Positions 51,541 through 62,769 of a DNA stretch of 64,000 bases are shown here, one piece after another; the stretch's first letter is position 1, and the number at the start of each line of letters is the position of its first letter. The notes under the pieces are model-generated. The model saw nothing but the letters and a program-made list of their open reading frames with translations. It was not told where the DNA came from and made no database searches. The stretch is from Rhodocyclaceae bacterium (GTDB lineage Bacteria > Pseudomonadota > Gammaproteobacteria > Burkholderiales > Rhodocyclaceae), in assembly GCA_030681195.1 (NCBI GenBank), contig JAUXXJ010000005.1, forward strand, positions 186,001 to 250,000, given 5' to 3'. The translations under genes and the position numbers were made by a program.

Positions 51541-51669
51541 GTTTTATTTCCTCTAACAGTTGTTGTGCTGCACGACCCCTGTGATTATGCCTGAGTTAAT
51601 ACACAGGTACAGTGTGTGAATTTACGTAATAAAGCTTGAGAAGTCGATGTTTAACCACGATAATGTGGG

Positions 51670-51950
51670 CATAGTCGTAATTCCGGCAAACCGGAAGCGT
51701 TTCGGACGGCGGTTCGATTCCGCCCACCTCCACCACTAAAAGTATCATTTTTACGATATGGGGGTGCACTGGCTTCGACGGGGCGAAAGAAGGCTAGCAG
51801 GCGACTCGTCAGGCGATCGACGTTAATGAAGCAAATCTCTAAACGCCAACGATGAGCGTTTTGCACTGGCCGCTTAAGGTCTATGCCGAGGCCGCTTTAG
51901 CCTTGTAACCCAAGAAAAGCCGGCGGGGACTCCATGAAAATGGAGTCCCC
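51670..51950 (+). ncRNA. ssrA: Permuted two-piece tmRNA
   Basis: The gene order is reversed from one-piece tmRNA. First comes the acceptor piece, ending GCGTTTCGGACGGCGG-TTCGATTCCGCC-CACCTCC-A-CCA at 51735 (TpsiC arm GGCGG/CCGCC, acceptor CACCTCC, encoded CCA; 5' limit approximate). After a 24-base intervening segment (51736-51759) the coding piece begins GGGGGTG at 51760, pairing with CACCTCC including one G-U. It contains the D-loop-like GGCTTCGACGGGG and the tag frame at 51845-51877: ANDERFALAA then TAA. It tags stalled proteins with SmpB. The two pieces are expected to be cut out of a precursor, as known in some betaproteobacteria. Confidence 0.93.
51925..51950 (+). terminator. Strong hairpin at the 3' side of ssrA
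   Basis: Perfect 11-bp stem GGGGACTCCAT / ATGGAGTCCCC with a GAAA tetraloop. There is no T tract, so it may be the 3' end structure or processing signal of the tmRNA precursor rather than a rho-independent terminator. Confidence 0.65.
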
Positions 51951-51975
51951 GTCGTCATTCCAGCCTTGTGGAAGC

Positions 51976-61812: not shown

Positions 61813-61889
61813 AGGCGCGTAGCTCAGCTGGTTAGAGCACCACCTTGACATGGTGGGGGTCGTTGGTTCGAGTCCAATCGCGCCTACCA
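61813..61889 (+). tRNA. tRNA-Val(GAC)
   Basis: A 77-base tRNA with acceptor stem AGGCGCG / CGCGCCT, D arm AGCTCAGCTGG, anticodon loop TTGACAT giving anticodon GAC, T arm GTTCGAGTC, and encoded CCA at 61887-61889. Confidence 0.96.
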
Positions 61890-61953: not shown

Positions 61954-62769
61954 GTGCGCCCGGCAGGGCGCACTTACTTGGAGGTGGAAGTCCTCTACTC
62001 GCCCGACAAGGGGAAGAGTTAGCTGAACGGCAAGGGTGTTCTGGGCGACTGAAAATCTGGAGGAAGCCGAAGGCAAAGCGCTGGTCTGACGAACAGGAAG
62101 CGGATACGAGGCGGCACGGAGGGGTAAGGCGGCCAATATCGTCGAAGCCCGAAACTTGTACGGAACGCCGTGACGTATATCCGACAGGCATAAGCGTGAA
62201 GGTGAGTGCGCAATACCCGGGGAGATCTGCACGGGTGCCGAGGGGAACCTCCGTGCTACCGCCATCGAGAGGAGAAATTCTTCGATCGCGTCAATCACGA
62301 CCTGCTGATGCAGAAACTCTCGACGAAGATCGATGATGGGCGAATGCTTCGCCTCATCCGCCGGTATCTGGAAGCAGGCATGATGGCCGACGGGATGGTA
62401 TCCCAACGGACCGAAGGCACACCGCAAGGCGGGCCCTTGAGTCCGCTGCTGTCGAACATCCTGCTGACGGAATTGGATCCTGTGGCGACAGTGGAAACGC
62501 CCCTATACTCGCGCCAAGAACTTGATGAGGGCAGGACTGAAGGAAGAGCGGGCATTTTGCTCGGCGTTCAACCAACGTGGGCCGTGGTGGAACAGTGGCG
62601 CGAGCCACATGAACCAGGCTTTCCCGAAGTCCTTCTTTGATCGATTAGGTCTGCTGTCGCTGCTCGATACGCTGCGACGACTCCAGTGTGTTCAATGAAC
62701 CGCCGGATGCGGAACCGCACGTCCGGTGGTGTGAGAGGGCGACGGGGGTGACCCCGTCCCCTACTTGAT
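61954..62769 (+). mobile_element. Degenerate group II intron inserted behind a terminator
   Basis: The 5' end GTGCGCC starts a structured intron 5' region (61954 to about 62270). The 3' end has an intact domain V (CCGGATGCGGAACCGCACGTCCGG, given here as 62703-62726) and domain VI, ending CTACTTGAT. The insertion point right after a rho-independent terminator is the habit of class C introns. The internal coding region is deleted and frameshifted, so it cannot move on its own; splicing RNA parts may be intact. Confidence 0.85.
62272..62699 (+). pseudogene. Deleted group II intron reverse transcriptase/maturase
   Basis: Two remnants in different frames. Part 1 is a middle RT segment (EKFFDRVNHDLLMQKLSTK, then GTPQGGPLSPLLSNILLTELD, about 62272-62475). 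Part 2, in another frame, is the C-terminal maturase end (LWRQWKRPYTRAKNLMRAG, then GPWWNSGASHMNQAFPKSFFDRLGLLSLLD and LQCVQ, about 62480-62699). The N-terminus, the YADD active site and the thumb domain are missing. An open frame at 62206-62640 is only a fusion of the debris. Confidence 0.88.

Follow-up and report, generated by a model that had tools for sequence, protein, structure and literature searches.

Background

tmRNA is the RNA that rescues stuck ribosomes. The founding paper on its permuted form in betaproteobacteria is reportedly that of Sharkady and Williams in 2004.

Betaproteobacterial permuted tmRNA is a published class (PMC11915505, PMC3985003, PMC3978253). One of these sources presents gene segments and Rfam models of permuted tmRNA, 11,946 unique permuted sequences in a 2025 database, a CCA position "not always encoding CCA", and outer parts that differ between the alpha, beta and cyano groups (PMC11915505). 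Two-piece tmRNA is also published for phages (PMC9004378).

Here, we describe a gene of this class within a stretch of 64,000 nucleotides from a Rhodocyclaceae bacterium (the window) and compare it with tmRNA genes from genomes of the family and from phages and a plasmid.

Results

A permuted tmRNA gene in the window

The first-pass annotation of this locus had proposed a circularly permuted two-piece tmRNA gene and had named a covariance search with a permuted model as a check. The sequence, ARAGORN and two Rfam models support the proposal. ARAGORN called a permuted tmRNA (tmRNA*, 51643-51968). RF01850 (beta_tmRNA) matched 51622-51957 with 231.8 bits (gathering cut-off 84, E 1.1e-73) over model positions 1-331 of 331, and RF04321 (tmRNA_permuted) matched 51673-51877 with 167.9 bits (gathering cut-off 47, E 7.9e-34) over positions 1-213 of 213. 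Both matches are above cut-off and far beyond chance. The parts of the gene and its putative promoter, with the basis of each in brackets, are:

51636 to 51664, forward strand: sigma-70-like promoter, TTGAGA, 17 nt, GATAAT, 10/12, with the transcription start predicted at about 51671 (motif score)
51671 to 51735, forward strand: acceptor piece of about 65 nt with CCA encoded at its end, the predicted mature RNA 1 (sequence, ARAGORN, Rfam; 5' end predicted from the promoter position and from the RF04321 match, which begins at 51673)
51708 to 51724, forward strand: T arm GGCGG-TTCGATT-CCGCC (sequence; RF01850 and RF04321 alignment)
51725 to 51735, forward strand: 3' acceptor strand CACCTCC (51725-51731), discriminator A (51732) and CCA (51733-51735) (sequence)
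51736 to 51759, forward strand: intervening spacer of 24 nt, CTAAAAGTATCATTTTTACGATAT, presumably removed (sequence)
51760 to 51954, forward strand: coding piece, predicted mature RNA 2 (ARAGORN, Rfam; 3' end approximate, set at the base of the last hairpin)
51760 to 51766, forward strand: 5' acceptor strand GGGGGTG, with the RNase P cut expected just before it (pairs 7/7 with 51725-51731)
51845 to 51877, forward strand: tag reading frame GCC...TAA, encoding ANDERFALAA and TAA (ARAGORN; sequence)
51885 to 51920, forward strand: predicted pseudoknot region 3' of the tag (RF01850 alignment)
51921 to 51954, forward strand: 15-bp hairpin with a GAAA loop that closes the gene (fold of 51920-51957)

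The acceptor piece is encoded upstream of the coding piece. The acceptor piece with CCA up to 51735 and the 24-base spacer after it had been placed exactly by the earlier annotation, and the pairing of GGGGGTG with CACCTCC that it had noted is complete (7/7), with G.T as the third pair. We take a G3.U70 pair in the acceptor stem to be the alanine identity. ARAGORN returned the same tag as the earlier annotation, ANDERFALAA, and its frame ends in the degradation signal ALAA. The CGAAA/TTTCG pairing is present in the sequence, but offset from the P2 register drawn by RF01850. The fold of the 136-nt stretch from the acceptor piece to P2 was not convincingly above shuffles (z -1.67, 14/200 shuffles as good). 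The annotation had further held that the boundaries and the role of the spacer were undescribed. This holds only in part: PMC11915505 gives gene segments for the class together with Rfam models, and the comparison below suggests a role for the spacer as a dispensable linker.

The sole ssrA of the genome

We have little doubt that this gene is the sole ssrA of the Rhodocyclaceae bacterium, in the known permuted two-piece betaproteobacterial form and with a spacer that is most likely a linker. The genome, given as 99.96% complete, comprises 58 contigs and 3.66 Mb, with the window on C7; in it, RF01850 matched once only, at the window locus. An unpermuted tmRNA elsewhere had been named as the case against the permuted reading; in a search of this genome with the standard model RF00023 (cut-off 47), none was found above cut-off, the best match reaching 27.5 bits and the window locus 25.8 bits. 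The genome holds one PF01668 match for SmpB (202 bits, C1:195575-196003). The assembly thus shows the gene with its parts, in one copy, and an SmpB.

That the locus is a pseudogene or an island-made tmRNA fragment, with the working gene elsewhere, is hardly credible. Fragments of permuted ssrA are indeed seen near islands, as in G128, where a second piece of 45.6 bits, at a distance of about 8.5 kb, adjoins an ORF that matches the phage-integrase domain PF00589 (46.3 bits). However, the window gene is full length in both Rfam models, with an intact tag and a fully paired acceptor stem, and no other tmRNA reached cut-off in a nearly complete genome.

In G128 (L251 2981-12100), a mostly low-GC3 ORF block and the PF00589 phage-integrase protein stand between the permuted gene and the fragment; apparently, this block is an island inserted at the tmRNA gene.

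Judged by PyrD, the nearest named relatives are from Rhodocyclaceae, with 94% identity to a Rhodocyclaceae MAG. Within the genus of the window, RF01850 was above cut-off in 16 of 19 genomes and RF00023 in none of the 19; the other three genomes (G005, G011, G017) had neither form above cut-off.

Transcript ends and proposed maturation

Transcription probably starts near 51671, because the promoter-like site holds a constant place among the permuted loci (60 from Rhodocyclaceae and one plasmid): the best site lay at the same distance (+/-1 base) with a 17-nt gap in 59/61 loci, and it scored at least 9/12 in 52/61. In the window itself, one such site was found and shuffles averaged 0.7, which is weak alone. 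The start at 51670 given in the first-pass annotation fits better than the 51643 of ARAGORN, because 51643-51664 falls within the promoter-like site. The last hairpin (51920-51957) folds at -31.2 kcal/mol (z -7.37). No T run follows it and the T-run rule found no terminator-like site there, which is a point against the model.

From the sequence, we infer the start, the cuts and the activity of the gene as follows. One transcript from about 51671 would carry the acceptor piece, the 24-nt spacer and the coding piece in this order, and its acceptor strands would pair, leaving the spacer as a loop. RNase P would most likely cut before G51760, and exonucleases would trim the spacer remnant as far as the CCA that ends at 51735. 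Held together by the acceptor stem and P2, the resulting pair of RNAs would be charged with alanine (G3.U70), associate with SmpB and add the ANDERFALAA tag to stalled nascent chains.

Two precursor designs in Rhodocyclaceae

The 64 permuted genes that we parsed comprise 60 Rhodocyclaceae genes, three genes of Samunavirus phages and the gene of a Cupriavidus plasmid (L005). Among the Rhodocyclaceae genes, the window's own genus is over-represented (16/60; 11 type A and 5 type B), and five tmRNA loci without an ARAGORN call were left out (L226, L227, L349, L350, L351). As defined here, type A genes have an extended helix; type B genes have an encoded CCA, a spacer of at most 24 nt and no such helix.

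Type A comprises 43/60 Rhodocyclaceae genes and the Cupriavidus plasmid gene. These genes lack an encoded CCA, the third position being C, T or G, never A. Through a spacer of 24-48 nt that pairs with the discriminator, CCN and the bases after it, the acceptor helix becomes longer by some 12 bp; of the 12 positions beyond the acceptor stem, every one of the 44 genes has 10, 11 or 12 paired. Over 40 distinct rows, 92.9% of the cells were paired vs. a shuffle mean of 83.0%, with two-sided changes at 8/12 pairs (3.8 in shuffles) and in 45 cells (15.0 in shuffles). In 1000 column shuffles, not one of these three values was attained, with the caveat that column shuffles leave relatedness in and that the structure had been spotted by eye before testing. 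When the register was slid by 1-3 bases, pairing was 20-50%.

Type B comprises the other 17/60 Rhodocyclaceae genes, the window gene included, with CCA encoded and the extended helix absent. Their spacers measure 4 nt in 13/17; the other four, of 6, 20, 23 and 24 nt, are all in the genus of the window. The window gene belongs here, with its encoded CCA, its 24-nt spacer and no extended helix: of the first 7 positions, 2 could form pairs across the CCA region, vs. 10-12 of 12 in the 44 type A genes. Precursor folds ranged from -28 to -38 kcal/mol in six type A genes and from -9.8 to -12.3 kcal/mol in seven type B genes, with -12.3 kcal/mol for the window gene. A single origin of the encoded-CCA design was considered and set aside, as the 17 genes lie dispersed over the tmRNA tree; it is not refuted, however, since grouping them together was not rejected (p-AU 0.135).

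A helix only where CCA is unencoded fits all 60 parsed Rhodocyclaceae genes. As a general rule it was discarded: in families f4 and f24, the genes L368, L370, L373 and L374 combine an encoded CCA with the helix, and L371 has both by eye. L375 (f21) encodes CCA and has a 5-nt spacer; L372 (f3) could not be parsed.

The sequence after the tag, at the expected pseudoknot site, is of two unlike kinds, GCCGAGGC... and GCTGAGGAC...; among the genes compared, the GCTGAGGAC kind was seen only in type B, which has both.

For the window gene, we read the 24 nt as probably a dispensable, removable linker, because genes of the same design in its genus have 4, 6, 20 and 23 nt. Across these five genes, window included, the spacers share no conserved sequence except in the pair G000/G016, and the 23-nt spacer of G016 is similar to that of the window gene. 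This likeness, together with a weak A/U hairpin in the spacer (fold of 51725-51766, z -2.61, 1/200 shuffles as good), speaks for an AT-rich spacer with its own function in this strain, as a regulatory or processing signal. We regard such a function as quite improbable, given the unlike spacers of the other three genus genes of the design (4, 6 and 20 nt) and the 4 nt that prevail among all genes of the design (13/17).

For type A precursors, RNase Z was rejected as the general enzyme: TIGR02651 was above its cut-off of 292.95 bits in 0/121 family genomes, which makes a tRNase Z step doubtful for Rhodocyclaceae. Weaker matches (E <= 1e-20) occurred in 6/121, and those near cut-off came from a standard genome (G091, 268.3) and a type A genome (G120, 240.1); RNase Z may thus be present in a few family genomes. 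Among the 14 control genomes, 11 matched, 9 of them above cut-off. Our guess for type A is RNase III followed by CCA addition.

Distribution and descent of the two gene forms

Among the 121 family genomes, RF01850 was above cut-off in 49 and RF00023 in 66; one of the latter (G121, 47.2 bits) is a permuted locus, leaving 65 standard. Neither form was above cut-off in 8/121, two of which had partial standard matches (G041, G101), and the fragmented genomes of the sample may contain misbinned contigs. In 300 genomes sampled from the order, RF04321 was above cut-off in 14, seven Rhodocyclaceae and seven of four other families. One family genome (G030) holds both a permuted gene with a 4-nt spacer and a standard gene (loci L222/L228); its contamination is given as 2%, and misbinning is possible.

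The rpoB gene was matched in 100/121 genomes and used for 92, and the form was scored in 88 (39 permuted, 49 standard). On this tree, the form changes at least 17 times. With 87 genomes, the count was again 17, whereas 200 label shuffles averaged 28.6 changes and never fell below 23, so the form is partly inherited but often changing. On this quick tree without bootstrap, sister genomes that differ in form, at SH-aLRT values of 99 or higher, were G037/G097, G061/G116 and G046/G104. On the tmRNA tree (126 rows, 186 columns; L082 classed standard), one change separates permuted from standard genes (100/99) and the window gene stands among the permuted ones; the alignment is short, the bootstrap unsettled and the branch between the forms long (a program warning). 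Because 17 changes on the rpoB tree reduce to one on the tmRNA tree, these data suggest that permuted ssrA in Rhodocyclaceae is one lineage spreading laterally.

The chromosomal neighbourhood bears on the same question. At the standard loci (n=62), gph was directly upstream on the same strand in 40, ubiG was in the flank of 10 more, and 12 had neither. Among the 16/60 permuted loci with ubiG and/or gph, gph was downstream and inverted in 6 and upstream in the standard direction in 4, and 6 had ubiG only. A cheY-like gene adjoins 4/60 permuted genes, the window gene included, and 40/60 had none of these genes, a class that may include near misses as flanks were mostly 1.5-3 kb.

The alternative is repeated, independent permutation within Rhodocyclaceae, in which the gene was duplicated in tandem in place and then lost its outer ends, with no lateral spread of one gene. 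It would account for the 17 form changes on the rpoB tree, and ubiG and/or gph do flank some permuted genes (16/60, vs. 50/62 standard genes). Moreover, G037 (permuted) and G097 (standard) are colinear at 78% identity, the match ending about 92 and 103 bp ahead of the respective genes. We find this account unlikely. All 64 permuted genes fall on one side of the branch from the 62 standard ones (100/99), although the long branch, the unsettled bootstrap and a structural constraint able to separate the forms temper this argument. Besides, 6 of the 10 permuted genes with gph beside them show it in the orientation opposite to standard genes, and the other 44/60 were not seen beside ubiG or gph.

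A conserved place beside pyrD was also tried and rejected: ARAGORN found no tmRNA in any of the 80 named pyrD loci (flanks up to 6 kb, some shorter). The locus with 94% PyrD identity (L094) is colinear with the window for about 7.5 kb (about 89-91%, one gap) up to 51984, which is L094 7915 and 16 bases past the tmRNA end of ARAGORN. The next segment of L094 holds pnp-like and truB-like ORFs (named by eye) and matches contig C11 of the genome of the window. We read this break as an ordinary rearrangement end beside ssrA.

Elsewhere in the window, group II intron domains (62039-62769; RF02001 133.2 bits, RF00029 43.4 bits) lie shortly after a tRNA-Val (61813-61889).

Phage and plasmid carriers

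In viral contigs, a DNA pattern for the extended helix matched 61 and a pattern for the 4-nt spacer matched one. Of these 62 contigs, 18 were scanned with Rfam: 18/18 were above the RF04321 cut-off and 14/18 above that of RF01850. ARAGORN called no permuted tmRNA in 11/62 loci, L376 included, and two loci (L407, L377) are incomplete at the end of the sequence examined. The 62 loci represent 42 distinct genes, 41 of which were placed on a tree with 64 others. Viral and bacterial permuted genes are intermixed there, many forks being weakly supported. Two viral genes (L383, L425) are very close to bacterial ones and may be proviral or host DNA.

The viral tmRNAs (L377-L437) have the acceptor and spacer part in common and very different middle parts and tags (e.g., AKTFEFKTFSVEEVASNDFAFELAA), as if modules had been exchanged.

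Three Samunavirus Pseudomonas phages (L002-L004, about 2445-2836) carry a permuted tmRNA with the tag ANDTSFDVRLAA, a 112-nt spacer and encoded CCA; of the three records, two are annotated and list no tmRNA there. The Cupriavidus plasmid (L005 2371-2688) carries a full permuted tmRNA (231.7 bits, tag ANDKRFALAA). As RNA genes are not listed in the PLSDB table at all, the lack of an entry there is uninformative.

Discussion

At the family level, we tentatively join these results in one reading: a single lateral lineage of permuted genes, partly borne by phages and plasmids, which would repeatedly displace the standard gene and be displaced by it, with two precursor designs that would follow two maturation routes. 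In the first, a long hairpin over an unencoded CCA, with no RNase Z above cut-off, would perhaps be processed by RNase III and CCA addition. In the second, the design of the window gene, an open loop, mostly of 4 nt, with encoded CCA would be processed by RNase P and exonucleases.

In the parts of the literature searched, including PMC11915505, PMC9004378, PMC3985003, PMC3978253, PMC4131195 and PMC4383926 –the 2004 founding paper being outside this scope– we found nothing on a pair of spacer designs, on a covarying helix or on permuted and standard genes alternating within Rhodocyclaceae. The two designs raise a testable question: how a two-piece RNA is cut and how it receives its CCA. The cost or gain of a form change could be read from close pairs of unlike form, for instance standard G061 and permuted G116.

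Compared with known systems, the window gene agrees with RF01850 in piece order, acceptor stem, tag, P2 and final hairpin, and matches RF04321, which merges alpha, beta and cyano sequences, at all 213 positions. Within the betaproteobacterial class, it differs in encoding CCA and in a spacer that is not paired over CCA, whereas 43/60 Rhodocyclaceae genes and the Cupriavidus plasmid gene show the opposite. It shares the tRNA-like domain, the tag and the SmpB partner with standard one-piece tmRNA (RF00023), but not the piece order. With the two-piece tmRNA of phages it has the permuted order in common, while most phage coding pieces and tags are unlike its own. Thus, the window gene is one more case of a known gene class, and the family-level pattern around it is a lead.
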